A stretch of DNA of 64,000 nucleotides from Tsukamurella sp. TY48 (GTDB taxonomy: Bacteria; Actinomycetota; Actinomycetes; Mycobacteriales; Mycobacteriaceae), in assembly GCF_019656655.1 (NCBI RefSeq), contig NZ_BPMV01000002.1, positions 682,001 through 746,000 on the forward strand, written 5' to 3'. Within the stretch, counting starts at the first letter, position 1. Every line of letters begins with the position of its first letter. Below the pieces are notes generated by a model, which saw only the letters and a list, made by a program, of their open reading frames with translations, searched no databases and was not told the origin of the DNA. The position numbers were made by a program, and so were the translations under genes. Positions 17,427 through 32,105 of this stretch are shown here, piece by piece.

Positions 17427-17893
17427 CTGTCCGCCTCGTCCTCGTCCGCCGGGAGATCGGCGTCGTCGTCGTGCTTGTAGGGATCGGCCTCGCCGGCCGG
17501 CGTCGCGTTCGCGGCCGCAGCGGCCACCCGCTCGTCCTGCTCGCGGGCCTTGGCGAGCAGCGCCTCCATGGTGGCCACGGCCTCCGGGACGGTGTCCGGT
17601 TCGAACCGCAGCGTGGGGGTGAACCGCACGCCGGTGCCGGCCCCGACCTTGGTGCGCAGCTGGCCGCGGGCCTTCTCCAGGCCGGCCGCCGCGGACTCGT
17701 AATCGGGTTCGGTATCGAGGGTCGGACCCATCACCGTGTAGTACACGGTGGCGTCGTGCAGATCGTTCGTCACCCGCGCGTCGGTCACGGTGACGAAGTC
17801 CAGGCGCGGGTCCTTGATGTCGTGTTCGATGGCGGTCGCGACGATCGTCGCGATCCGCTTGGCGAGCCTCGCCGCCCGGGCCGGATCAGCCAT
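17423..17893 (-). CDS. rbfA: 30S ribosome-binding factor A
   Basis: A 156-residue RbfA, a KH-fold factor that binds the 16S 5' region during late 30S maturation and cold adaptation. Recognisable segments are [20 protein letters not shown] and [20 protein letters not shown]. The C-terminal 40 residues are an acidic/Ala-rich extension rich in Asp, common in actinobacteria. It lies 90 nt downstream of the DUF503 gene and overlaps the DHH gene. Confidence 0.96.
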
Positions 17894-17983
17894 CGATCAA
17901 TCCCTCACTCTCTCGAACTTGCATGCTGCGCGATTGAGCGAGCATATACACACCTTGTTACACGACTGAGACACAGTGCATCC

Positions 17984-18274
17984 TCAGTCCTCCGGACCGA
18001 ACAACCGGCGGCGCACCGACAGCAGCTCCACTTCGGGATGCCCCGCGGCGGAGCGCTCACACCGGTCCAGGATCTCGACGACGTGCGCGTGATCGGGGCC
18101 GACGACGCCGACCCCGATCACCGCACGGCGGTGCAGGTCGTGGTGGCCCACCTCGGCCGCGCTGACGGAGAATCTCCGCAGCTCGGCGAGGATGGGCTTG
18201 ACCACCGACCGCTTCTGCTTGAGCGAGTGCACGTCCCCGAGCAGCAGATCTATCTCGAGGGCGCCGATGAACAC
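17984..18274 (-). CDS. DUF503 family protein
   Basis: A 96-residue protein of the DUF503 (YlxP-like) family, commonly found between infB and rbfA. The family signature is clear: FIGALEIDLLLGDVHSLKQKRSVVKPILAEL. The start is GTG 18274, chosen because the family begins at this residue; it is 11 nt downstream of the infB stop. The function is unknown. The operon position suggests a role near ribosome assembly (inference). Confidence 0.9.
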   Translation of the reverse strand: MFIGALEIDLLLGDVHSLKQKRSVVKPILAELRRFSVSAAEVGHHDLHRRAVIGVGVVGPDHAHVVEILDRCERSAAGHPEVELLSVRRRLFGPED

Positions 18275-18285
18275 CGCGGTACCCG

Positions 18286-21100
18286 TCAGGCGCGCGGCTT
18301 CTCGACCAGCTCGTAGGTCTCGATCACGTCGCCGACCTTGATGTCGGAGTACGAGAGCGTCAGACCGCATTCGTAGCCCTCGCGGACCTCCGTCGCATCG
18401 TCCTTCTCGCGCTTGAGCGAGGTGACGATGAGGTTCTCGGCCACCACGGTCGAGTCACGCAGCAGGCGTGCCTTCGCGTTGCGGCGCATGATCCCGGACT
18501 GCACCAGGCAGCCCGCGATGTTGCCCACCTTGGACGACTTGAAGATGGCGCGGATCTCGGCCTGGCCGAGCTCCTTCTCCTCGTAGACCGGCTTGAGCAT
18601 GCCCTTGAGCGCGGCCTCGACCTCGTCGATCGCCTGGTAGATCACCGAGTAGTACCGGATCTCCACGCCCTCGCGGTTGGCGAGCTCGGTGGCCTTGCCC
18701 TCGGCACGCACGTTGAAGGCGATGATGATCGCGTTCGACGCCGACGCCAGGTTGACGTTGGTCTCGGTGACGCCACCGACGCCGCGGTCGATGACGCGCA
18801 GCTGCACCTCGTCGTCGATCTCGATGCCGAGGAGGGCCTCTTCGAGGGCCTCGACGGTGCCGGAGTTGTCGCCCTTGAGGATGAGGTTGAGCTGGCTCGT
18901 CTCCTTGAGCGCGGCATCCAGATCCTCGAGCGAGACGCGCTTGCGCGACTTCGCGGCCAGCGCGTTGCGCTTGCGCGCCGCACGCCGGTCGGCGATCTGC
19001 CGGGCGATCCGGTCCTCGTCGACCACGAGCAGATTGTCACCTGCGCCGGGCACCGACGTGAAGCCGATGACCTGGGCCGGACGCGACGGGGTCGCCTCCG
19101 TGATGTCGTCGCCGTTCTCGTCGACCATGCGCCGGACGCGACCGTAGGCGTCGCCCGCCACGATCGAATCGCCGACCCGCAGGGTGCCGCGCTGGATGAG
19201 CACGGTGGCCACGGGGCCACGGCCGCGGTCGAGGTGGGCCTCGATGGCCACACCCTGCGCGTCCATGTCCGGGTTCGCCCGCAGGTCCAGCGAGGCATCG
19301 GCGGTCAGCAGCACTGCTTCGAGCAGCGCCTCGACGTTCGTACCCTGCTTGGCCGAGATGTCGACGAACATGGTGTCGCCGCCGTACTCCTCGGGAATGA
19401 GGCCGTACTCGGTGAGCTGTCCGCGGATCTTCTCGGGCTGCGCGCCCTCCTTGTCGATCTTGTTCACCGCCACCACGATCGGCACATCGGCCGCCTGCGC
19501 GTGGTTGATGGCCTCCACCGTCTGCGGCATGACGCCGTCGTCGGCCGCGACCACGAGGATCGCGAGGTCGGTGGCCTTGGCACCGCGGGCACGCATGGCG
19601 GTGAACGCCTCGTGACCCGGGGTATCGATGAACGTGATCAGACGCTCGTTGCCGTCGAGCTCGGTGAGCACCTGGTAGGCACCGATGTGCTGCGTGATGC
19701 CGCCGGCCTCGCCCTCGCGGACGTTCGCCTTGCGGATCGTGTCGAGCAGTCGGGTCTTACCGTGATCGACGTGGCCCATGACGGTGACCACCGGCGGACG
19801 CTGCTCGAGATCGTCCTCGTCGCCCTCGTCCTCGCCGTAGGTGAGGTCGAAGCTGTCGAGCAGCTCGCGATCCTCGTCCTCGGGGCTGACGACCTGGACG
19901 ACGTAGTTCATCTCCTCGCCCAGCAGCACGAGGGTCTCCTCGTTCACCGACTGGGTCGCGGTGACCATCTCGCCCAGGTTGAACAGCGCCTGGACCAGCG
20001 ATGCGGGGTTCGCGTCGATCTTCTCGGCGAAGTCGCTCAGCGAGGCGCCGCGAGCGAGACGGATGGTCTCGCCCTGACCACGCGGAAGCCGAACGCCACC
20101 GGCGATCGGAGCCTGCATGTTCTCGTATTCGGCGCGTTTCGCGCGCTTGCTCTTCCGGCCACGACGCGGTGCGCCACCGGGACGGCCGAAGGCACCGGCG
20201 GTCCCGCCGGGACGGCCACGACCGCCACCACCGGGACGTCCCCGGAATCCACCCGCGGGTGCACCGGTTCCGGTACCACCGCCGGGTCCACCGCGGTAGC
20301 CGCCGCCACCGCCGCCGGGACGACCGCCGGGCCCACCACGACCACCGGGGCCGGGACGGCCCTGAGCGGCCGGACGCGCAGCGCGCGAGGGCATGGCGCC
20401 GGGGTTCGGACGGGGAGGCATGCTGCCGGGGGTGGGACGGGGCCCACCGGGACCGGCCGCCGGGCGACCACCCTGGGGACGGGGGCCACCCTGGCCGGGA
20501 GCCGGACGCGCGCCACCCTGAGGACGCGGACCACCCTGGCCGGGAGCCGGACGGGCGCCGCCCTGCGGACGCGGACCACCGGGGCCCGGCTGCGGACGCG
20601 GCGCACGCTCGACGGGAGCCTGCGACGAGAAGGGGTTGTTGCCGACGCGCGGGGTGCGCGGGCCGGGCTTCGGGCCCGCCGGACGCGGACCGGGACGCGA
20701 CGGCGCGGCCGGACGATCCTCGGTCGACGGTGCGGGCGCGCTCGCAGCGGGGGGCCGCGGGTGCGGCCGGTGCTGCGGGCTCGGGTGCCGGCTCCGCCGC
20801 AGGTGCGGCGGGGCGGGGACCCGGACGGGCCGACGCGGGCTTGGGGGCCGCATCGGACGACGGGGCGGGGGTGCTCGCGGCCGCGGGGCCGGGCTTCTTC
20901 GCCGGGGCCGCGGGCCCCGGCTTCGCGGCGCCGTCGGACTTGGATCCGTACGACTCGCGCAGGCGTCGCGCGACGGGTGCTTCCACCGTCGACGACGCGG
21001 ACTTCACGAACTCGCCCTGCTCACTGAGCCGTGCGAGAACTTCCTTGCTGGTGACACCGAGCTCTTTAGCCAACTCGTGCACACGGGCCTTGCCTGCCAC
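18286..21100 (-). CDS. infB: Translation initiation factor IF-2, reading frame interrupted by a one-base shift
   Basis: Encodes IF-2, the GTPase that brings fMet-tRNA to the 30S subunit. GTG 21100 follows AGGAG; the N-terminal domain begins with [20 protein letters not shown] Pro/Ala/Gly-rich linker spans about 20100-20900. The G domain has [16 protein letters not shown] and NKID, then domains II-IV. The N-terminal 115 codons and the rest lie in different frames. The shift maps to six G's at 20749-20754 (C6 on the coding strand); removing one base restores a continuous product of about 937 residues. Since infB is essential, a homopolymer sequencing error is most likely. Alternatively, translation could restart internally. 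Confidence 0.93.
20749..20754. other. Homopolymer G6 at the infB frameshift
   Basis: With six G's the upstream frame reads [10 protein letters not shown] and runs out of the IF-2 frame. With five it reads [17 protein letters not shown], joining the two halves in the low-complexity linker style seen on both sides. This is the only place where both frames give linker-like composition. Confidence 0.8.
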
Positions 21101-21278
21101 TACTCTCCTCATCTGCGAGGTCGAGGGCACTGGAAAGGTCCCGCCGACCTCGGTTAGTTACACCGATTGCCGTTCATCGCTGGTGCTTCACGGTTTGCTC
21201 ATGTCTTCAGCTCGATTCCTTCGATTCTTCCGTACGGCGGTCACTGCAAGACCTGCCGTCTTCAGACCGTTGTCAATA
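21101..21278 (-). promoter_or_regulatory. infB leader between glycerate kinase and IF-2
   Basis: This 178-nt non-coding stretch separates the last gene of the catabolic operon from infB. On the minus strand it begins with TAGTAT (21276-21281), whose TAG is also the glycerate kinase stop codon, followed by TTGACA. It ends with the AGGAG ribosome-binding site of infB. A promoter here would give a leader of about 170 nt. I cannot tell whether infB has its own promoter or depends on read-through. Confidence 0.4.
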
Positions 21279-22391
21279 CTAGCGCGTCGGGGCAAATCGT
21301 TTCGCCGCGCGGTCGCCGGCGGCCCGCAACCAGCGCGCCGGATCGGCGAGTGACTCCTCCGCGGTACCCGCGAGATCCGTCAACGAAAGCGTGTGAACTG
21401 GCGTTATCCCGGTCTGCGGGGCGATCGCGACCTGCCCGGCGACCACGACGACGGGGGTAGCCGCGGCCCGGCACCGGTCGACGATCCGCCCGACGACCTT
21501 GCCGGTGAGGGAGGTGGCGTCGAATCTCCCCTCCCCGGTCACCACGATGTCGGCGGTCGGCAGGTTCTGTGCGAGCCCGGTCAGCTCGGCGATCCGGTCC
21601 GCCCCCGACGTCGCGGTGGCGCCCCAGCACAGGAGACCGAACCCGACTCCACCGGCAGCGCCGGCGCCCTGGGCACCGACGAGCGCGGGATCGCATCCCG
21701 CGGCGGCGAGCGCGGCCGCCCAGGAGCGGAGCCCGTCGTCGAGCTCGCGCACCTGGGTGGAATCCGCGCCCTTCTGCGGTCCGTAGACCTGCGCGGCCCC
21801 GTCGGGGCCGTACAGCGGGATGTCCGTGTCGACGAGGAGTTCGACGCCGCCCGGAGGCAGGGAACGCAGATGGGTCAGATCGACGGCGGCGACGTCGCGC
21901 ACCGTCGCCCCCGTCCCGAGCGCACAGCCGCACCGGTCGAAGGCACGCAACCCGAGGGCGCGCAGCGCCCCGAAACCGCCGTCCGTGCTCGCCGATCCGC
22001 CCAGCCCGATGCGGATGCGGGTGGCGCCCTCGTCGAGTGCGGCGGCGATGACCTCGCCCAGGCCGTCGGTGGTCGCGGTCATCGGCATGAGCTGCTGGAC
22101 GAGGGCGATCCCCGAGGATTCGGCCAGCTCGATCACCGTGTCACCGCCGCGCGCACGGGTCCAGCGCGCCCGCACGGGACGCCCATCGGGGCCGGTGACC
22201 TCGGAGGATCGGTTCAGCCACTGCGGGGCCGCGGCGATGGTGGCGACGGTCCCCTCGCCACCATCGGCCTGCGGCAGGGCGATCACCTCGTCATCCGGCC
22301 GGACGCCGAGCCAGCCGTCGCGAAGGGCCGACGCCGCCTGCTCGGCATCGATGGATCCCTTGAACGAGTCCGGCGCGATGACGACTCTCAC
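21279..22391 (-). CDS. glxK: Glycerate kinase (GlxK/GK-I family)
   Basis: A 370-residue glycerate kinase, phosphorylating D-glycerate (typically to 2-phosphoglycerate, feeding glycolysis). The family starts RVVIAPDSFKGSIDAEQAA and has ADGGEGTV, GLGGSASTDGG and VTGEGRFDATSLTGKVVG motifs. GTG 22391 overlaps the stop of the isomerase-like gene (GTGA), so it is the last gene of a four-gene operon. Its presence indicates that the upstream enzymes release glycerate or a precursor such as tartronate semialdehyde or hydroxypyruvate (inference). Confidence 0.93.
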   Translation of the reverse strand: MRVVIAPDSFKGSIDAEQAASALRDGWLGVRPDDEVIALPQADGGEGTVATIAAAPQWLNRSSEVTGPDGRPVRARWTRARGGDTVIELAESSGIALVQQLMPMTATTDGLGEVIAAALDEGATRIRIGLGGSASTDGGFGALRALGLRAFDRCGCALGTGATVRDVAAVDLTHLRSLPPGGVELLVDTDIPLYGPDGAAQVYGPQKGADSTQVRELDDGLRSWAAALAAAGCDPALVGAQGAGAAGGVGFGLLCWGATATSGADRIAELTGLAQNLPTADIVVTGEGRFDATSLTGKVVGRIVDRCRAAATPVVVVAGQVAIAPQTGITPVHTLSLTDLAGTAEESLADPARWLRAAGDRAAKRFAPTR

Positions 22392-23221
22392 GCGCCGACG
22401 GCGAGACCCGGCAGCACCAGGTCGCGGTAGCGTCGCTTCATCGTCTCGACCACGGTGGCGGGGTCGGCGTCCCAGATCTCCCGATTGAAGATCTCGACCT
22501 CGATGTCGCCGCGATATCCCGCCGCCGTCACCTGCTCGGTGAGCGGGCCGAAGTCGATCACACCGTCGCCCATCATCCCGCGTGAGAGCAGCGGATCGGC
22601 GGCGATCGGTACGAGCCAATCGCACACCTGGTAACTGCTGATCCGTCCCTGCCGTCCCGCTTCGGCGATCTGATCGGCGACATCCGGATCCCACCACACG
22701 TGGAAGGCGTCCACGACGACGCCGACGTTCGCGGCCGGATGCGGTGCCGCGAGGGCGAGCGCCTGGCCGAGCGTCGAGATCACCGCCCGATCGGCGCAGT
22801 ACATGGGGTGCAGGGGTTCGAGCGCGAGGCGCACGCCGCGCTCGGCCGCATGCGGCACGAGCTCGGCGATGCGGTCCGCGAGGCGCTGTCTCGCCGAACG
22901 GAGATCGCGGTCGGGCATACCGCCCGCCACGATGATCAGTTCGGGAGCGCCGACCGCGGCCGCCTCGTCGAGGGCGCGCCGATTGTCGTCGAGCGCGGCA
23001 TCGTCGTGGTCGGTGAGGAACCCGCCGCGACACAGGCTGGAGACGCGTATCGCGTTGTCGTGCAGGATCTTCACCGCCTCGTCGATGCCGGCCTCCGCGA
23101 GCCGGTCCCGCCACAGTCCCACCGCGGGGAGTCCGGCGGCGGCCGCGCCCTCCACCGCTTCGCGCAGGGTCCAGGATTCGGTGGTCCGGGTGTTCAACGA
23201 CAACCGATCGAAATCCGTCAT
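22388..23221 (-). CDS. Sugar phosphate isomerase/epimerase-like TIM-barrel protein
   Basis: A 277-residue protein of the AP-endonuclease-2/xylose-isomerase-like superfamily (IolE/Hyi type). Conserved metal-site segments are visible: LALEPLHPMYC (Glu), VGVVVDAFHVWWDP (Asp/His) and a C-terminal GDIEVEIFNREIW (Glu). The reaction is probably an aldose-ketose or epimerase step on a sugar acid or keto-sugar (inference). ATG 23221 overlaps the DUF993 stop (ATGA) and its own stop overlaps the glycerate kinase start, so all are made from one mRNA. Confidence 0.85.
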   Translation of the reverse strand: MTDFDRLSLNTRTTESWTLREAVEGAAAAGLPAVGLWRDRLAEAGIDEAVKILHDNAIRVSSLCRGGFLTDHDDAALDDNRRALDEAAAVGAPELIIVAGGMPDRDLRSARQRLADRIAELVPHAAERGVRLALEPLHPMYCADRAVISTLGQALALAAPHPAANVGVVVDAFHVWWDPDVADQIAEAGRQGRISSYQVCDWLVPIAADPLLSRGMMGDGVIDFGPLTEQVTAAGYRGDIEVEIFNREIWDADPATVVETMKRRYRDLVLPGLAVGA

Positions 23222-24411
23222 GCCGAGACTCCGTTCAGATCGAGGTAGCCGCGCATTCGGTGCGCCGCGAGACCCGGGTCCCGCAGGAGTCCGGCCCGGT
23301 CCGCGAGCACGAAGACCTTCGACAGATGCTCCACCGACCGGCCGCTGGCCAGCCCGTTGACCATGGCGAAGCCCGGCTGCTGGCCGTTGAGCCAGGACAG
23401 GAACGCGATCCCGGTCTTGTAGTAGTAGGTGGGCGCTTCGAACACCACCCGCCCGAGCTCGCGAGTGGATTCCAGGATCGCGCCGGCGCGGTCCACGTCC
23501 CCCGCATCGAGCGCCTGCAGAGCGGTGGATGCGGCGGGATAGATCGCCGCGAAGATCCCGAGCAGCGCGTCGGAGTGTCCGCGCTCGTCGCCCACGATCA
23601 GTTCCGGGTAGTTGAAATCGTCTCCCGTGTAGAGCCGAACGCCCGGCGGGAGCGCACGGCGGAGGGCGATCTCGTGCTGCGCGTCGAGGAGGGACACCTT
23701 GACGCCGTCGATCACCGCGGCGTGCTCGCCGATCAATTGCAGGAAGGTATCGGTGGCGGTGCCGAGATCGGTACTGCCCCAGTAGCCCCTGAGGGCGGGG
23801 TCGAAGACGTCGCCCAGCCAGTGCAGGATCACGGGGCGATCCACCTCGCGGAGCACGGTCCGGTACACCGCCAGGTAGTCCTCGGCGGACCGGGCGACGG
23901 CCGCGAGCGCACGAGATGCCATGAGCACCACCTGCGCTCCCGCGCCGGCCACCACATCGACCTGCTCCCGATAGGCGTCGCCGATCGCGCTGAGGCCGGC
24001 CGCGCCCGATGGGAGGACGCCGAGATCGAGCTGATCGGTGCCGGCGCCGCAGGCGATCCGCCCGCCCGCCGCATTCGCCTCGGCGGCGCTGCGCCGGACG
24101 AGTTCGGCGGTGGCGGTCCAGCTCATCCCCATACCGCGCTGCGCGGTGTCCATCGCGTCCGCCACCCCGAGTCCGTACGACCACAGTTCACGCCGGTAGG
24201 CCAGCGTGGCGTCCCAATCCAGATCGGCCGGGGCACCGGGGGTGTTATCGGCGGTGACACGCGGGATGACGTGTGCCGCAGCGAAGGCGATCCGTGAGGT
24301 GATCGGAGCGGTCGGACGATGCCACGGCCCGGGCTCCCCCAGGCGGTGCGCGTGCAGTCGACCGTCGATGGGGAGGACCAGATCAGCGCCGGGCCCCGCC
24401 GTGACGCTCAC
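23218..24411 (-). CDS. DUF993 family protein (DapA-like TIM barrel, predicted lyase)
   Basis: A 397-residue DUF993 protein. The family is annotated as related to dihydrodipicolinate synthase/aldolase barrels. Visible features: VILHWLGDVFDPALRGYWG, GVKVSLLDAQHEIALR (the Lys is the candidate Schiff-base residue) and RLYTGDDFNYPELIVGD. GTG 24411 overlaps the dehydrogenase stop (GTGA). In its operon it lies between an oxidoreductase and an isomerase-like gene, so a retro-aldol or dehydratase step on an oxidised sugar is plausible (inference). No member's activity is known to me. Confidence 0.82.
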   Translation of the reverse strand: MSVTAGPGADLVLPIDGRLHAHRLGEPGPWHRPTAPITSRIAFAAAHVIPRVTADNTPGAPADLDWDATLAYRRELWSYGLGVADAMDTAQRGMGMSWTATAELVRRSAAEANAAGGRIACGAGTDQLDLGVLPSGAAGLSAIGDAYREQVDVVAGAGAQVVLMASRALAAVARSAEDYLAVYRTVLREVDRPVILHWLGDVFDPALRGYWGSTDLGTATDTFLQLIGEHAAVIDGVKVSLLDAQHEIALRRALPPGVRLYTGDDFNYPELIVGDERGHSDALLGIFAAIYPAASTALQALDAGDVDRAGAILESTRELGRVVFEAPTYYYKTGIAFLSWLNGQQPGFAMVNGLASGRSVEHLSKVFVLADRAGLLRDPGLAAHRMRGYLDLNGVSA

Positions 24412-25574
24412 AGCGCGATCTCCGGCACCTCGAGGCGCATCCCGCACTCGGAACTCTGCAAGCCGAGTTCGGCGAGTTGCACCCCGCGTGCGGCCGACAA
24501 CAGGCCGAAACGGTGGGGCCGCTCGGCGATCACATCGCGCAGGAACTCCTCCCACTGCAGCTTGAAGCCGTTGTCCAGGTCCGCGTTCGCCGGAACGTCG
24601 AGCCATTGATCGCGGAACGGTTCGGTGACCGGCAGATCGGGATTCCACACCGGTTTCGGGGTGCTCGACCGGTGTTGCGCGACGCAGTTGCGCAGTCCCG
24701 CGACCGCGGAGCCGTGCGTCCCGTCGACCTGGAACTCGACGAGCTCGTCGCGACGGACGCGCACCGTCCACGCCGAGTTGATCTGCGCGATGATCCCGCC
24801 ATCGATCTCGAAGATGCCGTAGGCGGCGTCGTCGGCGGTGGCGGCGTACTCGCGACCGTTCTCATCCCATCGCACCGGGATCTGCGTGACCGCTTTCGCC
24901 GTGACCGATCGGACCGGACCGAGAATGCCCTCCATCACGTAGTTCCAGTGACAGAACATGTCCACGGTGATGCCACCGCCGTCCTCGGCGCGGTAGTTCC
25001 AGCTCGGCCGTTGCGCGGGCTGCCCGTCGCCCTCGAACACCCAGTAGCCGAAGTCGCCCCTCATCGAAAGGATGCGGCCGAAGAACCCCTCGTCGACGAG
25101 GCGGCGGAGCTTCACCAGGCCGGGCAGATAGAGCTTGTCGTGCACCACGCCCGCGACGACGCCGGCGTTCTGCGCCAGTCGGGCGAGCTCGATCGCCTCC
25201 TCCAGCGTCTCGGCGGTGGGCTTCTCCGTGTAGATGTGCTTGCCCGCCTTGATCGCCGCGGTCAGCGCGGCGGCGCGCCGCGAGGTGACCTGGGCGTCGA
25301 AGTACACGTCGATGGCGGGGTCGGCGATCACGGCCGCGGCATCGGTGGTCCAGGTCGGAACCTCGTGCAGCGCGGCGAGCTCGGCCAGCCGGTCGGCGTT
25401 GCGTCCCACCAGGATCGGTTCGACGTCGACCAGCGTGCCATCGTCGAGCCGCAGCCCGGTCTCCCGGAGCGGCAGGATCGATCGGACCAGATGCTGCCGG
25501 TACCCCATGCGGCCCGTGACGCCGTTCATGGCGATCCGGAGCGTGCGGCGCGGTGCGGTGGACTTGTTCGTCAT
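24408..25574 (-). CDS. Gfo/Idh/MocA-family oxidoreductase
   Basis: A 388-residue NAD(P)-dependent dehydrogenase of the glucose-fructose oxidoreductase/inositol dehydrogenase family. The Rossmann start reads IAMNGVTGRMGYRQH (GxxGxxG variant). The conserved YTEKPTAETLEEA carries the EKP catalytic Lys, and GGITVDMFCHWNYVMEGILG corresponds to the usual GGGxxxDxGxH region. It is the first gene of the catabolic operon and is divergent from the LacI gene; a LacI-type operator (25637-25655) lies 62 bp upstream. Its probable job is oxidation of a sugar or polyol hydroxyl group. Confidence 0.9.
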   Translation of the reverse strand: MTNKSTAPRRTLRIAMNGVTGRMGYRQHLVRSILPLRETGLRLDDGTLVDVEPILVGRNADRLAELAALHEVPTWTTDAAAVIADPAIDVYFDAQVTSRRAAALTAAIKAGKHIYTEKPTAETLEEAIELARLAQNAGVVAGVVHDKLYLPGLVKLRRLVDEGFFGRILSMRGDFGYWVFEGDGQPAQRPSWNYRAEDGGGITVDMFCHWNYVMEGILGPVRSVTAKAVTQIPVRWDENGREYAATADDAAYGIFEIDGGIIAQINSAWTVRVRRDELVEFQVDGTHGSAVAGLRNCVAQHRSSTPKPVWNPDLPVTEPFRDQWLDVPANADLDNGFKLQWEEFLRDVIAERPHRFGLLSAARGVQLAELGLQSSECGMRLEVPEIAL

Positions 25575-25636
25575 ATGGGTGTGCCCCGTCTTCGGGCGCG
25601 GTCGTCACAGGACGCCGCGCGTGCGTTCGGTTGCAC

Positions 25637-25655
25637 TTCGGAATGCGCTTTCCCA
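25637..25655. promoter_or_regulatory. LacI-type operator O1
   Basis: TTCGGAATGCGCTTTCCCA contains the near-palindrome GGAA-T-GCGC-T-TTCC with the central CG usual for LacI/GalR sites. It lies between the dehydrogenase operon and the lacI-like gene, so it can serve both. A 17-of-19 match recurs at 26822-26840. Confidence 0.82.
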
Positions 25656-25724
25656 GCGTATGGTAGAACCGCCGCGGGAGTCAAGCGGCACAATCGACCA
25701 GGCACTAACCGAGACGGAGGCGAG

Positions 25725-26756
25725 ATGGCGGTCACCCTGCAGCACGTCGCAGATCGCGCCGGCGTCTCCCAGGCGACCGCCTCCAGGGTGCTCAACGGCT
25801 CGAGTCGCACACCGCGCGAGGACGTCGCCGACCGCGTCCGCACCGCAGCGCGAGAACTCGGCTACGTCGCCAACGCCCAGGCCCAGGCCCTGGCCCGATC
25901 ATCGACCGGACTGCTCGGGCTCATCGTGCACGACATCGCCGACCCGTACTTCTCGTCGATCGCACAGGGCGTGCAGCGCGCCTCCCGGACAGCGGCCAAA
26001 GAGGTGCTCCTCGCGAGCACCGACCGGGACTTCACCATCGAACGCGACGCCGTGAGCACACTCATCGCACACCGCGCGGATGCGATCATCCTCGCCGGCT
26101 CCCGCCAGAGCGGCGACCTGGACCGCGATCTCGAGGAACTGTTCGCCCAGTATCAGGCGAACGGCGGGAGGGTCGTGGTGATCGGCCAGCCGCTCGCATC
26201 GGGAGGGGCCGTCGAGCCCGAGAACAGGCTCGGAGCAAGCGAACTGGCCGACGCCCTGGTCGAGGCGGGACATCGCGACTTCGCCGTGATCGGTGGCCCC
26301 GCGGCCATCCGCACCGCGGTCGACCGGCGGAACGGATTCGTGGAGACCCTCGGCAACCACGCGATCACCCCGCTCGTCGAGGTCTCGGGCGACTTCACCC
26401 GCGACGGCGGCTACTCGGCCGCACGCCGCCTCGCCGATGCCCTGCACCTCGAACCGGATTCGGGCCGCGCACCGATCTGCGTCTTCGCCGTGACCGACGT
26501 CATGGCGATCGGGGCCATCGCGGCGTGGCGAGAACAGGGACTCCGCGTTCCCGACGACATCTGCATCGCGGGCTTCGACGACATCCCCACGCTGCGCGAC
26601 CACACCCCGAGCCTGAGCACCGTCGCCCTCCCCCTGGAGCAGATCGGTTACCGCGCCGTCGAACTCGCGCTGCGAACGGACACGAACGACGGCGACCTCC
26701 GGGAACGTTTCACCGGATCCGTGGTCCTGCGGGACAGCACACGACTCCCTCGCTGA
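25725..26756 (+). CDS. LacI-family transcriptional regulator
   Basis: A 343-residue LacI/GalR repressor. The N-terminal HTH is standard (VTLQHVADRAGVSQATASRVLNG, residues 3-25) followed by a hinge with ALARSSTG. The periplasmic-binding-like effector domain includes GLIVHDIADPYFSSIAQG and the dimer-region ICIAGFDDIPTLRDHTPSLSTV. ATG 25725 has a CGGAGG ribosome-binding site. The gene separates two divergent target units, each headed by a copy of the same 19-bp operator. The effector is probably the imported compound or its first metabolite. Confidence 0.95.
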   Translation: MAVTLQHVADRAGVSQATASRVLNGSSRTPREDVADRVRTAARELGYVANAQAQALARSSTGLLGLIVHDIADPYFSSIAQGVQRASRTAAKEVLLASTDRDFTIERDAVSTLIAHRADAIILAGSRQSGDLDRDLEELFAQYQANGGRVVVIGQPLASGGAVEPENRLGASELADALVEAGHRDFAVIGGPAAIRTAVDRRNGFVETLGNHAITPLVEVSGDFTRDGGYSAARRLADALHLEPDSGRAPICVFAVTDVMAIGAIAAWREQGLRVPDDICIAGFDDIPTLRDHTPSLSTVALPLEQIGYRAVELALRTDTNDGDLRERFTGSVVLRDSTRLPR

Positions 26757-26821
26757 GCGAACGGGCCCGATTCGCCCAATTCGTTGACAGTGTGGGCTAC
26801 GTCACGTTATCGTCGAGACGC

Positions 26822-26840
26822 TTCGGAAAGCGCATTCCCA
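26822..26840. promoter_or_regulatory. LacI-type operator O2
   Basis: TTCGGAAAGCGCATTCCCA differs from O1 at two positions, and its core GGAAAGCGCATTCC is the exact reverse complement of the O1 core. It lies 57 bp before the ATG of the ABC permease. TTGACA (26783-26788) and TTATCG (26806-26811), 17 bp apart, form a good promoter just upstream, so a bound repressor would sit just downstream of the -10. Confidence 0.85.
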
Positions 26841-26897
26841 CACGGGCGATGATCCCCGGATGATCGTTCCCGGCACTTCGAACAAGAGGAACTGCCC

Positions 26898-27758
26898 ATG
26901 GCCGTATCCGCGCCGGCAGAACCGCTTCGCACCGCGAAACCGGTTCCCCATCGATCGAGACCCTCCTTCATCCAGCGTTCGACCATCGCCACCCTCTGGC
27001 GTCCGCTGGCACTGATCGTCGGCCTCCTCATCGCCTGGTGGGCCGTCACCAAGGCCGAACTGGTCGCGCCGTACATCCTCCCCTCGCCCGCGGATACCTG
27101 GCGCGTCGCACGCGACAATGCCTCCTACCTGGCCGAGAACACGTGGGTGACGACGTGGGAGACGGTGATCGGCTTCATCATCGCCGCGATCGTCGGCGTG
27201 ACCGTCGCGGTGGTCATGGTCTACTCACCGAACATCGAGAAGACCCTGTACCCGCTCATCCTCTTCGCACAGGTGGTCCCGAAGATCGCCATCGCCCCCC
27301 TGTTCATCGTGTGGCTCGGTTTCGGCCCCACGCCCAAGATCCTGGTCGCCGTCCTCATGGCCTTCTTCCCCATCGCGATATCCGGTCTCGCCGGCCTGCG
27401 ATCCGTCGACCCGGAGATCCTGGAGCTCACCTCCACGATGGGCGCGAGCCGCCTGAAGACCTTCGCGAAGGTCCGGTTCCCCGCCTCGCTCCCCCAGCTC
27501 ATGTCCGGCCTCAAGGTCGCGGCGACCCTCGCCGTGACCGGCGCCGTCGTCGGCGAGTTCGTGGGATCCAACGAAGGCCTGGGGTACGTGATCCTCCAGG
27601 CGAACGGAAACGTCGACACCGCAATGCTGTTCGCGGCTCTCATCATCATGTCCGGCCTCGGCATCGTGCTCTTCGCGATCATCGAGATCGCCGAGAAGAT
27701 GCTCATCCCGTGGCATTCCTCGCGCCGCGCGGCCTCATCGACAACCCCCGGCGTCTGA
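26898..27758 (+). CDS. ABC transporter permease, NitT/TauT (SsuC/TauC) type
   Basis: A 286-residue integral membrane protein with about six hydrophobic segments. It has the EAA-loop signature of importer permeases (ELTSTMGASRLKTFAKVRFPASLPQLMSGLKVAATLAVTG region) and the LPSPADTW start typical of the taurine/nitrate/sulfonate/thiamine-precursor group. It is first in a three-gene importer operon (permease, binding protein, ATPase) driven from the promoter at 26783-26811 under operator O2. Confidence 0.93.
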   Translation: MAVSAPAEPLRTAKPVPHRSRPSFIQRSTIATLWRPLALIVGLLIAWWAVTKAELVAPYILPSPADTWRVARDNASYLAENTWVTTWETVIGFIIAAIVGVTVAVVMVYSPNIEKTLYPLILFAQVVPKIAIAPLFIVWLGFGPTPKILVAVLMAFFPIAISGLAGLRSVDPEILELTSTMGASRLKTFAKVRFPASLPQLMSGLKVAATLAVTGAVVGEFVGSNEGLGYVILQANGNVDTAMLFAALIIMSGLGIVLFAIIEIAEKMLIPWHSSRRAASSTTPGV

Positions 27759-27783
27759 CGCGCCCACCATCCCAGGAGACACC

Positions 27784-28818
27784 ATGAACCTCAACCGCCG
27801 GACGATGGCAGCAATCGCGGCCGCCGGAACCATCGCCATGACCCTGACCGCCTGTGGCGGATCCGGAGACGGAGCGAAGTCCGCTCCCGACTCGAAGGGG
27901 AACAAGGCGGCCACCCTGATGCTCAACTGGTATCCGTACGGTGAGCACGCCCCGTTCTACTACGGCGTACAGAAGGGGATCTTCGCCAAGCACGGCATCG
28001 ATCTCACGATCGACGCCGGGCAGGGATCGACGAAGACCGCACAGGCCGTCGGCGCGAAACAGGCCGAATTCGGCTGGGCCGACACCCCCGCCGTGCTGAG
28101 CAACATCGACAAGGGGGTCAAGATCAAGAGCGTCTCGGTCTTCCTCCAGACCACGCCGTCGGCAGTACAGGTCTTCGCGGACTCGGGCATCAACACCCCC
28201 AAGGACCTGATCGGCAAGACCATCGCAGTCTCCGCCGGTGACGCACCGACCACGACCTTCCCGATCTACCTCGACAAGGTGGGGATCGCCAAGGATCAGG
28301 TGACCCAGCAGAGCCTCGACGCGGCCGGCAAGATGTCCGCGATGCTGTCCGGCCGGGTCGACGGTCTCATCGGCTTCGCCCACGACCAGGGCCCCACCAT
28401 CGCCGCCAAGAGCGGACGAGAGGTGCGGTACCTCAAGTACTCCGACGCGGGCCTGAACTACTACAGCAACGGACTGATCACCGCCACCGACACCATCAGC
28501 GGCTCGCGTGAACTGGTGCAGTCGATGGTGGACGCCGTCCGCGAGTCCTTCTCCGCCGCGATCGCCGAACCCGATGCGGCCGTCGATTCGATGGCGGGCA
28601 AGGATCCGCAACTCCCGGCCCGCGACGTCCTGCTCGCACAGTGGCGCCAGACCGTGCCGCTCCTGAACACGCCCGCTACCGCGGGCAAGGGCCCCGGCCT
28701 CAACGCCGAGGAGGATTGGAAGACCACGCTGTCCACGCTCAACCAGGCGGGTCTGCTGAAGTCCGCGAACGCCCCGGATACCTACTGGGACTCGTCGTTC
28801 ACCCCGAAGGACAAGTAG
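27784..28818 (+). CDS. ABC transporter substrate-binding lipoprotein, NMT1/THI5-like
   Basis: A 344-residue exported lipoprotein with a TLTAC lipobox after a hydrophobic signal. The fold is the NMT1/SsuA/ThiY class: LMLNWYPYGEHAPFYYGVQKGIFAKHGIDL, then AGQGSTKTAQAVGAKQAEFGWAD. Members bind hydroxymethylpyrimidine, riboflavin, taurine, nitrate, sulfonates or aromatic acids; the ligand here is not evident. The GEHAP/YYG region resembles the pyrimidine- and riboflavin-binding subgroup more than the sulfonate one (weak inference). It is 25 nt downstream of the permease gene. Confidence 0.92.
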   Translation: MNLNRRTMAAIAAAGTIAMTLTACGGSGDGAKSAPDSKGNKAATLMLNWYPYGEHAPFYYGVQKGIFAKHGIDLTIDAGQGSTKTAQAVGAKQAEFGWADTPAVLSNIDKGVKIKSVSVFLQTTPSAVQVFADSGINTPKDLIGKTIAVSAGDAPTTTFPIYLDKVGIAKDQVTQQSLDAAGKMSAMLSGRVDGLIGFAHDQGPTIAAKSGREVRYLKYSDAGLNYYSNGLITATDTISGSRELVQSMVDAVRESFSAAIAEPDAAVDSMAGKDPQLPARDVLLAQWRQTVPLLNTPATAGKGPGLNAEEDWKTTLSTLNQAGLLKSANAPDTYWDSSFTPKDK

Positions 28819-28826
28819 GAGAAGCG

Positions 28827-29636
28827 ATGTCGATGTCCCTTGCACAGGAACGCACGGAGATGGCGCCCGCAGCCATCTCCGTCTCCGACCTCACCGTCAC
28901 CTTCTCCTCCAAGCGCGGAACCACCACCGCCCTCGAAGGCATCGACATGACCGTGGCCGACGGCGAGTTCGTCACCATCGCCGGACCCTCCGGCTGCGGA
29001 AAGTCGACGCTGCTGAAGGTGATCGCGGGGCTCACCGACTCGTCGCAGGGCGAGGTCCGGCTGCGCGGCAAGGTGGTCTCCGGTCCACAACGCGAGATCG
29101 GCTACGTCTTCCAGCGCGCGGCATTGCTCGAATGGCGCAACGTCCGGAAGAACATCCTGCTGCAGGCCGAGATGCGGGGTATGCCGAAGCAGGACGCCGC
29201 GCAGCGATGCGACCATCTCCTCGAGATGACCGGGCTCACCGGCTTCGCCAACGCCATGCCCTACGAACTGTCGGGCGGTATGCAGCAGCGGGTCTCGCTG
29301 TGCCGGGCGCTGATGCACGAGCCCAAGGTCCTGCTCATGGACGAGCCCTTCGGCGCTCTCGACGCCCTGACCAGGGAGAAGATGAACGTCGAATTGCACC
29401 GGATCTGGCGCGAGACCGGGACCACCGTGGTGCTGGTGACGCACTCGGTCGCTGAAGCGGTGTATCTGGCCAATCGCGTCGTCGTGATGAGCCCGCGGCC
29501 GGGACGCATCGTCGAGGAGCTCGCAGTGGATCTCCCGGCCGAACGCGACTACTCCGAGACGATGGAACGTTCCGAGTTCATCCACATCGCGAACCGGGTC
29601 CGCGAGCTACTGGGCAGCAGCTCCGCCGCCGACTGA
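28827..29636 (+). CDS. ABC transporter ATP-binding protein, NitT/TauT (SsuB/TauB) type
   Basis: A 269-residue ATPase. Walker A is GPSGCGKST, the Q-loop is in GYVFQRAALLEW, the signature is LSGGMQQRV, Walker B is VLLMDEPFGALDA and the switch His is in VLVTHSVAEA. ATG 28827 follows a TAGGAGA ribosome-binding site, 8 nt after the binding-protein stop. The last 30 bp overlap the 3' end of ylxR on the other strand, marking the right-hand junction of the locus with the nusA operon. Confidence 0.94.
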   Translation: MSMSLAQERTEMAPAAISVSDLTVTFSSKRGTTTALEGIDMTVADGEFVTIAGPSGCGKSTLLKVIAGLTDSSQGEVRLRGKVVSGPQREIGYVFQRAALLEWRNVRKNILLQAEMRGMPKQDAAQRCDHLLEMTGLTGFANAMPYELSGGMQQRVSLCRALMHEPKVLLMDEPFGALDALTREKMNVELHRIWRETGTTVVLVTHSVAEAVYLANRVVVMSPRPGRIVEELAVDLPAERDYSETMERSEFIHIANRVRELLGSSSAAD

Positions 29637-29879
29637 CAGCATCGAGTCGTCGAGCGGGCCGGATACCCGCAGCGCCCGCCGGAACGCGTTCCGGCGGCGC
29701 GCCTGCTCGACGCACTCGGGCGCATCGTGCAGCCAGGCACCGCGCCCCGGCAGCCGCCGCGCACCGTCGACCACGACCCGCAGCGCACCGTCGTCCCCCG
29801 CGACCGCGACCGTGCGGATCAACTCCGCGGCGGGCGCCCTGCGGCGGCACCCGATGCAGGTGCGGACCGGTTCACTCAC
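29607..29879 (-). CDS. ylxR: YlxR family RNA-binding protein
   Basis: A 90-residue YlxR (DUF448) protein, positional homologue of Rv2840c. The family core is present: [17 protein letters not shown], then [27 protein letters not shown]. YlxR normally sits between nusA and infB; recent work on homologues ties it to RNA binding or RNase P. GTG 29879 overlaps the nusA stop (GTGA). Its last ten codons overlap the convergent ABC ATPase gene, so its C-terminal SVGGGAAAQ may have been shaped by the adjacent insertion. Confidence 0.92.
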
Positions 29880-30877
29880 TCGGGGCTGCCAGTCTCCGCA
29901 TCCGAACGGATGTCGATCCGCCAGCCGGTGAGCCGGGCGGCGAGGCGGGCGTTCTGCCCCTCCTTGCCGATGGCGAGCGAGAGCTTGAAGTCGGGGACCA
30001 CCACGCGGGCGGCCTTCTCCTTCGGGTCGACGATGGTGACGGACACCACCGACGACGGGGACAGCGCGTTGCCCACGAAGACCGCGGGATCGTCGTCGTA
30101 GGCGATGATGTCGATCTTCTCGCCGTCGAGATCGCTCATCACGTTCCGCACGCGCTGCCCCATCGGGCCGATGCAGGCGCCCTTGGCGTTGAGTCCCGGC
30201 ACCGAGGTGCGCACGGCGATCTTCGACCGGTGGCCGGCCTCGCGGGCCACGGAGGTGATCTCGACGCTGCCGTCGGCGATCTCCGGGACCTCCAGCGCGA
30301 ACAGCTTCTTCACCAGGTTCGGGTGCGTCCGCGACAGGGTGATCTGGGTGCCGCGCTGACCGCGGCTCACGCCCACGACGTAGAACTTCATCCGGTCGCC
30401 GTGCTCGTAGGTCTCGCCGGGCACCTGCTCGGCGGGCGGGAGCAGGCCCTCGTGGCCCTCGCGCTCGCTGCCGATCCGCACCACCACGAAGCCGCGGGCC
30501 GCGGCGCGGGCGTCCGCCTGCACCACACCGGAGACGACCTCACCCTCGTACACGGCGAATTCACCGAACGTGCGGTCGTTCTCCGCGTCGCGCAGACGCT
30601 GGGTGATCAACTGGCGCGCGGAATCGGCGGCGATGCGGCCGAATCCCTCAGGGGTGTCGTCCCATTCGGTGATGATGTTGCCGTCGGCGTCGAGCTCCTG
30701 CGCGAGCACCTTCACCTCGCCCGTGCGCCGGTCCACATCGATCCGCGCGTGCGGCTGGTGGCCGTCGGTGTGCTTGTACGCCGTGAGCAGTGCCACCTGG
30801 ATCGCATCGATCACGGTGTCGACGGAGATGTCCTTCTCCGCCTCGATGGCCCGCAGGGTCGCCATGTCGATGTTCAT
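29876..30877 (-). CDS. nusA: Transcription termination/antitermination protein NusA
   Basis: A 333-residue NusA: N-terminal RNAP-binding domain ([26 protein letters not shown]), S1 domain ([26 protein letters not shown]), then two KH domains ([26 protein letters not shown] and [26 protein letters not shown]). It lacks the acidic C-terminal repeats found in E. coli, as usual for actinobacteria. It follows rimP immediately and overlaps ylxR. Confidence 0.97.
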
Positions 30878-31471
30878 TTAGCCCTCTTCTCCGGCGTCGT
30901 GCCCGGTCTCATCTGTTGTCAGGTCGGTCGGCTCGGCACCGGGAATCACGCGGCCCGGGGTGATTCCGGACAGCTCCAGCTCCCGCGGATTCGGCTTGCG
31001 GAACTCCACCCGTGCCGCGGCGGCGGCCACCTCGTCCAGCGCGATATCGCGTGTGGTCGGTTCCGACTTCCGCTCCCCCGGAACGACGACGGTCACCGTC
31101 GACTCGTCGTCGGAGAGCGCGCCGATCCGGACCAGAAGGTTGGTGCCGTCGGTGAGCTCGATCGCCGCCTGCCGCCCGCGGGCGCGCCGCCAGTGCCGCG
31201 GCTGCGTGAGCGGGCGCTCGGCACCGGGCGTGGTGACCTCCAGGGTGAAGGCCTGTCCGCCGAAGACATCGTCGGCGCCGTCGACCGCCTCCGACAGGGT
31301 GCGCGCGACATCCGCGAGGAGATCGAGGGTGGGTCCGGAGTCGTTGTCGACCACCACGGCGATGACCGATTTGGGGCCGGCGTTGGTGATGCGGAGATTC
31401 TCGAGATCGAGTCCCGCCTCGTCCAGGTGAGGTGCGATGACGGTGCGGACCGCCGATTCGTCGTATGCCAT
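30878..31471 (-). CDS. rimP: Ribosome maturation factor RimP
   Basis: A 197-residue RimP, needed for 30S maturation. Recognisable segments include VIAPHLDEAGLDLENLRITNAG, VVVDNDSGPTLDLLADVARTLSEAVD and LEVTTPGAERPLTQPRHWRRARGR. The C-terminus carries an Asp/Glu-rich actinobacterial extension. It is the first gene of the rimP-nusA-ylxR unit; the stop TAA abuts the nusA ATG. An AGGGAGG ribosome-binding site precedes its ATG. Confidence 0.96.
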   Translation of the reverse strand: MAYDESAVRTVIAPHLDEAGLDLENLRITNAGPKSVIAVVVDNDSGPTLDLLADVARTLSEAVDGADDVFGGQAFTLEVTTPGAERPLTQPRHWRRARGRQAAIELTDGTNLLVRIGALSDDESTVTVVVPGERKSEPTTRDIALDEVAAAAARVEFRKPNPRELELSGITPGRVIPGAEPTDLTTDETGHDAGEEG

Positions 31472-31592
31472 ACGCGCCTCCCTGTGAAATTGTCACGGGG
31501 CACATCGCCCCGTGCCGAACGCTCCGATCAGTGTACCCGCGTTACGACGCGCCGCGACCACGGTCCGGCCGGTCCCCTTAGACTCGTGCACC

Positions 31593-32105
31593 GTGCGTCC
31601 CGAACCCGAGCAACCCCTTCGCGGCACCGTCGACCGGCGGACCGCACTGACGTCCGCGCTCCTCGCCGGCGGCGCCCTGCTGGGTGCATCGGCCCTCGCC
31701 GGCTGCGCGCCCGAGGAGAAGGCCGACGACCCGCAGGCGACGCGCCTGGAGGCGGCCGCCCTCGCCGCGCAGGCCGACGCCGACGCCGCCCGCGGGCTGG
31801 CGGTACTCGACGGTGCGGTGGGTCCGCAGATGCGGCTCATCGCCGATCAGCGCTCGCAGCACGCCACCGCACTGTCCGACGAGCTGTCGCGCTACCTGCG
31901 GCGGCCCACCTCGGTGTCCCCGCCCACCTCGTCCGCGGCGCCCGCCCCCGGCGGCACCCTGAACCGGCAGACCTTCGCCGCACAGCTCGCCCGCTCGGCG
32001 AAGGACGCCGGCGATGCCGCGGTCGCCGCATCGGGCTACCAGGCCGCACTCCTGGGTTCGGTGGCCGCCGCGACCCGCGTGCACGCGGAGGTGGTGCTCG
32101 GATGA
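31593..32105 (+). CDS. Ala-rich Tat-like lipoprotein (Rv2843-like)
   Basis: A 170-residue exported protein: RRTALTSALLAGGALLGASALAGC is a twin-arginine-like signal with lipobox LAGC. The mature part is Ala-rich and helical with no known catalytic motif. By position (next to rimP, upstream of the DUF4439 gene) it corresponds to M. tuberculosis Rv2843. TAGACT (31579-31584) ends 8 nt before the GTG start, so the mRNA is probably leaderless. The stop overlaps the DUF4439 start (ATGA). Function unknown. Confidence 0.8.
   Translation: MRPEPEQPLRGTVDRRTALTSALLAGGALLGASALAGCAPEEKADDPQATRLEAAALAAQADADAARGLAVLDGAVGPQMRLIADQRSQHATALSDELSRYLRRPTSVSPPTSSAAPAPGGTLNRQTFAAQLARSAKDAGDAAVAASGYQAALLGSVAAATRVHAEVVLG

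Follow-up and report, generated by a model that had tools for sequence, protein, structure and literature searches.

Between ylxR and infB, in a 64,000-nucleotide (nt) stretch of the Tsukamurella sp. TY48 genome (contig NZ_BPMV01000002.1, positions 682,001 to 746,000; hereafter the window, with its genome called G000), lies a block of about 8.34 kb with eight genes: a four-gene operon, a LacI-family regulator, and a three-gene NitT/TauT-type ATP-binding cassette (ABC) importer. We put a probability of roughly 70% on the reading that this cassette is a laterally acquired, self-regulated catabolic unit, in which LacI would control an importer and a pathway leading through a DUF993 enzyme to glycerate, and that infB, the gene for initiation factor 2 (IF-2), has a promoter of its own. 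An initial annotation, made from the letters of the window, had placed 8.3 kb between ylxR and infB and named the same eight genes in the same order, which the family matches bear out. Its observation is confirmed, and its interpretation is partly supported.

The evidence for an insertion comes from comparison of the nusA-infB interval. The stretch from the end of NusA to the start of infB spans 8779 nt in the window; in one congener, G004, it spans 8895 nt, and in 37 of the 38 other genomes examined, 443-733 nt. (One locus, L204 of genome G027, measures 1384 nt and exceeds all 37 remaining non-carriers.) Orthologs of the cassette's Gfo/Idh/MocA dehydrogenase (hereafter Gfo) were found in the window and G004 only, i.e., in 2 of 16 genomes of the genus, and DUF993 in the same two. 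DUF993 was detected in 23 of 121 relatives, these two included; for the other relative carriers, no NusA, YlxR, or IF-2 was found near DUF993 at the loci of 20 of 21 (G083, a partial match, was left out). The same three proteins were absent from beside the module in all of 80 named loci, some of them truncated at contig ends and searched with matches under 40% of the query dropped; these loci are the best 80 of at least 526 confirmed DUF993 stretches. All 14 non-carrier congeners have an empty site, with 99-463 nt from the end of ylxR to infB, and the cassette proteins gave no match at E 1e-8 in the stretches from these genomes, three of which are short. Two of the empty sites are longer than usual (463 nt at L057 of G014 and 433 nt at L061 of G012, versus 173-200 nt in ten other non-carrier congeners); on account of these smaller changes, the site may tolerate insertions.

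Both joints could be read by eye. The ylxR gene of the window matches the empty form as far as GACGACTC (29644), and host sequence restarts at CGATTTGCC (21299), with about a dozen host bases missing between the two joints. Because host DNA restarts at 21299, the last six codons of glyK, the glycerate kinase gene, and its TAG stop are host DNA. At the other joint, ylxR has lost its stop, and its reading frame now ends inside the ATPase gene on the opposite strand (29607-29643). This altered 3' end and the 30-nt overlap with the ATPase gene had gone unmentioned in the initial annotation. By Pfam families, none of the eight cassette genes encodes an integrase or transposase; a search for repeats covered 25560-26930. 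The comparison supports a well-bounded, real insertion of a common module over an ancestral gene order, as had been suggested.

The regulatory layout suggests a unit that controls itself. A 14-mer palindrome, GGAAWGCGCWTTCC, is present at both cassette promoter regions, the importer copy at 26825-26838 being the exact reverse complement of GGAATGCGCTTTCC at 25640-25653. The window has no further site when up to two mismatches are allowed (chance mean, 0.51; two sites were reached in 8 of 100 shuffles), and the whole genome has none when up to one is allowed. The palindrome is also conserved at other loci (up to two mismatches, with matches under 150 bits dropped): of 105 loci, 85 have it in the 260 nt ahead of Gfo (the 20 that lack it include many proteobacterial plasmid loci), and all 27 loci with a permease match have it upstream of the permease. 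The proposal that LacI governs the locus is accordingly well supported, with GGAAWGCGCWTTCC as the putative operator for both operons, and the regulon looks local, confined to the cassette. Each of the three joints between the four minus-strand genes is a 4-nt overlap (start codons were read by eye, and the frames agree), in line with the overlapping operon that had been claimed, which supports translational coupling. Coordinates are collected in Table 1.

Table 1. Features of the ylxR-infB region of the window
Feature	Position	Strand	Remarks
infB	18286..21100	-	GTG start at 21100; frame changes near 20746 in the assembly
Conserved 7-bp stem GAGGTCG/CGACCTC	21145-21151 with 21117-21123	-	followed by Shine-Dalgarno sequence (region 21105-21151)
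infB leader, three overlapping mini-ORFs	21188-21202, 21174-21191, 21154-21177	-	
Candidate infB -10 hexamer TAGTAT	21276..21281	-	first three bases are the glyK stop
glyK, glycerate kinase family	21279..22391	-	PF02595, 338 bits (cut-off 23.3); TIGR00045, 288 bits (cut-off 168); PDB 3cwc, 1to6
Inserted cassette	21300..29643		about 8.34 kb; edges +/- about 5 nt, by eye; equivalent joints in G004
TIM-barrel isomerase/epimerase-like, AP_endonuc_2	22388..23221	-	PF01261; PDB 7vpf, 3qc0, 3ju2
DUF993, DHDPS-superfamily barrel	23218..24411	-	PF06187, 590 bits; K238 at the Schiff-base lysine position
Gfo/Idh/MocA dehydrogenase	24408..25574	-	PF22725/PF02894/PF01408; PDB 3oqb; EKP and D-x3-H motifs kept
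Putative LacI operator GGAATGCGCTTTCC	25640..25653		at the catabolic promoter
Promoter-like TTGACT-18-TACGCT, catabolic operon	25655..25684	-	by eye; weaker; absent from automatic scan output
lacI-family regulator	25725..26756	+	PF00356, PF13377 (helix-turn-helix and sugar-binding domain)
Promoter-like TTGACA-18-TATCGT, importer operon	26784..26813	+	automatic scan: 1 found, shuffles mean 0.1
Putative LacI operator GGAAAGCGCATTCC	26825..26838		11 nt past the importer -10
NitT/TauT-type ABC permease	26898..27758	+	PF00528 (BPD_transp_1); listed NCBIfam matches under cut-offs
NMT1/THI5-like substrate-binding lipoprotein	27784..28818	+	PF09084; nearest solved structure 3ix1, E 2.4e-14
NitT/TauT-type ATPase	28827..29636	+	PF00005 (ABC_tran); SaoA, taurine, and ntrCD models below cut-off among 25 of 187 NCBIfam matches
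ylxR	29607..29879	-	3' end extends into the insert; 30-nt overlap with the ATPase gene

The initial annotation had further suggested that read-through from glyK into infB could link catabolic induction to IF-2 supply. The two genes are on one strand with a gap of 178 nt, as stated, and an automatic scan of 21090-21420 returned neither a terminator-like site nor a sigma-70-type promoter. The suggestion is weakened by what lies between the genes: a conserved infB leader (described below) and a candidate -10 hexamer, whose aligned position reads TANNNT in 13 of the 16 genus genomes (TATGAT, TACTAT, TATTAT, and similar, by eye). Because the scan found no promoter, the case for one at infB is a case from conservation, and its empty result at the candidate -10 leaves some room for read-through. 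We still regard a purposeful link as unlikely, for the data hold no sign that read-through would be useful as opposed to incidental. In the reading that we prefer, most transcription of infB would start at a promoter of its own, and the insertion left the candidate -10 of that promoter intact.

We could place each enzyme of the catabolic operon in a family, and on these placements a pathway can be proposed. GlyK exceeds both curated cut-offs of the glycerate kinase family (PF02595 and TIGR00045). In the isomerase-like enzyme, E135, D171, H174, and E243 are invariant across 8 sequences and are presumably its metal site, and we take the EKP and D-x3-H motifs of Gfo to have the roles usual in Gfo/Idh/MocA enzymes. 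The best NCBIfam match of Gfo, levoglucosan dehydrogenase (NF052479), scores 66.6 bits and does not reach its cut-off of 650, and no substrate-naming NCBIfam model reaches its cut-off among the matches listed for Gfo. The same holds for the importer among the matches listed (for the ATPase, 25 of 187), which we assign to the NitT/TauT type because it combines an NMT1 binding protein, a permease, and an ATPase. DUF993 has a TIM barrel of the dihydrodipicolinate synthase (DHDPS) type, which places it in the DHDPS/N-acetylneuraminate lyase class I aldolase superfamily. Its K238 is invariant in 26 of 26 DUF993 sequences and aligns with the lysine of the DHDPS proteins encoded in the same genome, and YagE and other DHDPS-type enzymes are among its nearest folds. 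PF00701, the dihydrodipicolinate synthase family, gave no match to DUF993 at E up to 0.001, and the three PF00701 places of the genome lie elsewhere than the cassette. No reaction for DUF993 or substrate for the module was found in the literature searched. We take DUF993 to be a DHDPS-superfamily barrel, and consider it plausible that it has lyase chemistry that feeds the glycerate kinase.

The mechanism that we propose runs as follows. When no substrate is present, LacI would occupy GGAAWGCGCWTTCC at both divergent promoters, and an inducer derived from the pathway would free them. The importer would take up a small polar compound, probably anionic or sugar-like; Gfo would oxidize a hydroxyl to a ketone, and the TIM-barrel enzyme would then isomerize or epimerize the ketone. 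DUF993 would cleave or dehydrate the keto compound via a Schiff base on K238, and the three-carbon product would be converted to glycerate, phosphorylated by glycerate kinase, and passed to glycolysis. A similar scheme had been offered in the initial annotation; its later steps gain from the lyase-type fold and lysine of DUF993 and from the glycerate-kinase-family enzyme at the end, and its order, its chemistry, and the compound itself we can only infer.

The module is not peculiar to Tsukamurella. Among the 80 named loci, DUF993 is present in 80, Gfo in 79, the isomerase in 79, and a LacI gene in 76, and a NitT permease and binding protein accompany the Gfo, DUF993, and isomerase trio in 19. 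(In these counts, matches covering less than 40% of the query were dropped, some loci end at contig ends, and LacI and glycerate kinase may include paralogues.) The cassette is one copy of a module that is widespread in actinobacteria, so its pairing of importer and enzymes, which the initial annotation had called unusual, is in fact common. We also viewed 19 plasmid records of 147 matched, many of Pseudomonadota. Of the 19, 15 have the isomerase no more than two genes away from DUF993; 8 have Gfo within three genes on the same strand, and 2 more have it on the opposite strand; and 8 carry a glycerate kinase in the surrounding stretch. The 20 neighbor proteins searched against Pfam were chosen by a rough GC3-based gene prediction. 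A second cluster type is devoid of Gfo and combines DUF993 and the isomerase with some or all of acyl-CoA dehydrogenase, SDR, ETF, enoyl-CoA hydratase, and CoA-transferase.

Several observations weigh against the proposed mechanism: (i) glycerate kinase occurs in just 16 of the 80 named loci, some of them opposite-strand paralogues, and the TY48 genome holds a second glycerate kinase elsewhere; (ii) 11 of the 19 plasmid records have no same-strand Gfo within three genes of DUF993; (iii) acyl-CoA or CoA-transferase genes lie near DUF993 in several plasmid records, and a simple route from sugar to glycerate leaves these genes unexplained; (iv) the importers adjacent to DUF993 differ (NitT ABC, tripartite tricarboxylate, MFS, and sugar ABC), and hence indicate no single compound; and (v) the profile match of DUF993 to DHDPS is modest (probability, 75%). 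In DHDPS-type enzymes, GTTGE is the keto-acid binding motif and is accompanied by a catalytic tyrosine. These align to MDTAQ and H197 of DUF993, both invariant in the 26 sequences, and the pocket that normally binds the keto acid is thus altered. In view of the varied neighbors, DUF993 (in most cases together with the isomerase) may be a chemical core for which differing enzymes perform the first oxidation. The second glycerate kinase would fit the copy at the locus being dedicated to it, without proving it.

We considered two other routes. An oxidative pentose pathway, in which a sugar dehydrogenase, a 2-keto-3-deoxy aldolase (here DUF993), an aldehyde dehydrogenase, and a glycerate kinase act in turn, has reportedly been proposed for the pAO1 plasmid of Paenarthrobacter. 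The pAO1 operon of Paenarthrobacter nicotinovorans (NZ_CP089294) is among the closest known systems, with Gfo 74% identical over 382 residues and DUF993 64.7% identical, and its stretch holds a sugar ABC importer, an aldH tagged as D-xylose catabolic process, Gfo, DUF993, and glycerate kinase; the position of YagE among the nearest folds of DUF993 also agrees with such an aldolase. The portions consulted of PMC10494377 and PMC6214936 make no mention of the pAO1 operon. The cassette departs from this scheme in its NitT-type importer and in its TIM-barrel isomerase, which is not annotated in the pAO1 stretch, and neither an aldehyde dehydrogenase nor a sugar-acid dehydratase is among its eight genes. 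We judge a pAO1-like pentose pathway improbable for the cassette, to about the same degree as a useful read-through into infB.

Slightly less probable still, in our estimate, is a glycoside route, in which an anionic glycoside (e.g., glucosylglycerate) would be oxidized at C3 and then undergo elimination, with glycerate set free for the kinase. On levoglucosan and C-glycosides, this is how Gfo and AP_endonuc_2 enzymes work. The levoglucosan dehydrogenase model is the best match of Gfo, though far under its cut-off, and some DUF993 clusters carry carboxylate-type importers. The scarcity of glycerate kinase among the named loci speaks against this route.

The origin of the cassette was examined in two concatenated trees, one of Gfo, DUF993, and isomerase (31 loci) and one of LacI and importer (25 loci), rooted on distant loci. 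The copies of G000 and G004 form a clade in both (support 1.000), next to L105/L106 (Mycolicibacterium and Mycobacterium; 0.981 and 1.000), and they fall inside a Mycobacterium group, some inner branches of which are weak (0.249 to 0.609). The trees point to a mycobacterial-type source. The flanks of the two carriers fit a spread by recombination. Between G000 and G004, nusA is 91.7% and infB 93.9% identical. On the ylxR side, G004 is closest to G005, G011, or G015; in the first 120 nt of the infB leader beside the insert it is closest to G000/G010 (88%, then 98%); and deeper into infB its nearest relatives are G006, G005, G013, and others. The nusA tree puts G000 with G010 (0.948) and G004 in another clade, and the infB tree puts G004 with G014 (0.986). 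Three points here count against a simple account of acquisition: the host gene trees conflict on the place of the two carriers; the inserts share 74-86% DNA identity, less than nusA, infB, or the adjoining leader, which argues against a recent transfer between the two lineages; and the GC content of the insert (68.8%) is close to that of the flanks (71.2 and 70.2%), so composition gives no foreign mark. The simplest reading, we infer, would be a single capture long ago, after which the cassette moved between species by way of the homologous flanks. That the cassette was ancestral at this site and lost from most relatives would suit inserts that are not recent, but it is very improbable and already largely refuted by the compact interval in 37 of 38 other genomes, the 14 non-carrier congeners with ylxR near infB, the absence of cassette matches from their stretches, and the rooted trees that put the two copies among Mycobacterium loci.

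The infB leader beside the insertion drew our attention in its own right. It holds mini open reading frames (mini-ORFs) and a stem ahead of the infB Shine-Dalgarno sequence (Table 1). A chain of at least three mini-ORFs, each start overlapping the preceding stop, is present in 31 of the 35 genomes with a recognizable infB start (40 sequences were tried, of which 5 gave none), and comparable chains can be made out by eye in the remaining four leaders. Cut into 2552 overlapping 200-nt windows, the 64 kb has a chain in 3, perhaps the leader itself; of 5000 mononucleotide-shuffled leaders, 9 contain one. The peptides (MSTP, MKHQR, and MNGNRSN, for example) vary and the starts and stops are kept, which suggests that re-initiation, not the peptide, matters. 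The stem is paired in 98.8% of 168 cells (24 of 32 infB leaders found), and its covariation score was reached by 14 of 500 shuffles. We also note that infB changes frame near 20746 within a C run, most likely because the length of this GC-rich run was misread in sequencing; the gene is open for 934-936 codons in 3 of 4 congeners checked, and stops at 276 in G009.

Tentatively, and with rather more doubt than belief, we suggest that the Mycobacteriales infB leader could be a regulatory checkpoint through which the IF-2 level senses initiation itself. The 3' arm of the stem (CCTC) would pair either with the 5' arm or with the infB Shine-Dalgarno sequence. When initiation is good, ribosomes would traverse the mini-ORFs and cover the 5' arm, so that the Shine-Dalgarno sequence is masked; when it is poor, the stem would form and IF-2 would be made. 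Transcripts that read through from the LacI-controlled operon would be subject to this checkpoint as well. Evidence to the contrary is as follows. Only one pair of the stem is changed on both sides, which was reached in 356 of 500 shuffles, and the leader folds no better than its shuffles (z 0.17). A strict DNA pattern of the mini-ORFs matched 7 of 249 genomes of the order, none of them of genus g30, so the exact letters are not order-wide. A search of 17500-32000 against Rfam gave no match at E up to 1, and among the titles listed in the literature searched, none dealt with an infB leader.

DUF993 and its partner genes are widespread (at least 526 stretches and 147 plasmid records), and structures have been solved. 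The cassette places DUF993 with a single repressor, a single importer, and a glycerate kinase, and so opens the way to direct ligand and enzyme assays. The insertion is also a natural experiment on how 8 kb of regulated DNA can be accommodated within an essential operon, at a joint that spares the candidate infB -10 and the entire infB leader. If regulatory, the leader would bear on how bacteria set the level of IF-2.

Compared with known systems, DUF993 is a distant member of the DHDPS/N-acetylneuraminate lyase superfamily: it is 12-19% identical to DapA, YagE, and MosA, and has N- and C-terminal additions relative to them. In the pAO1 operon, a glycerate kinase (39%) follows DUF993, as in the cassette, but a GMC oxidoreductase and a GntR regulator lie nearby in addition to the sugar importer and aldehyde dehydrogenase mentioned above. 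In Sinorhizobium meliloti, SMc04132 is 50% identical to DUF993 over 381 aligned residues and SMc04130 is homologous to the cassette isomerase (E 1.1e-70); their solved structures are 4dnh and 3ju2, respectively. Locus tags alone define the SMc0413x neighborhood for us. In the portion consulted of PMC12542648, SMc04133 is a putative oxidoreductase and the annotation of SMc04135 is that of an ABC binding protein for peptides or amino acids, unlike the NMT1 type of the cassette; a search for a function of these genes gave none. Further counterparts are cassettes of Mycobacterium, Nocardia, and Rhodococcus (e.g., L105, L107, and L112), in which LacI, the NitT importer, Gfo, DUF993, and the isomerase are likewise arranged and the same operator recurs (up to two mismatches); some of them include the glycerate kinase, and NusA, YlxR, and IF-2 do not lie alongside.

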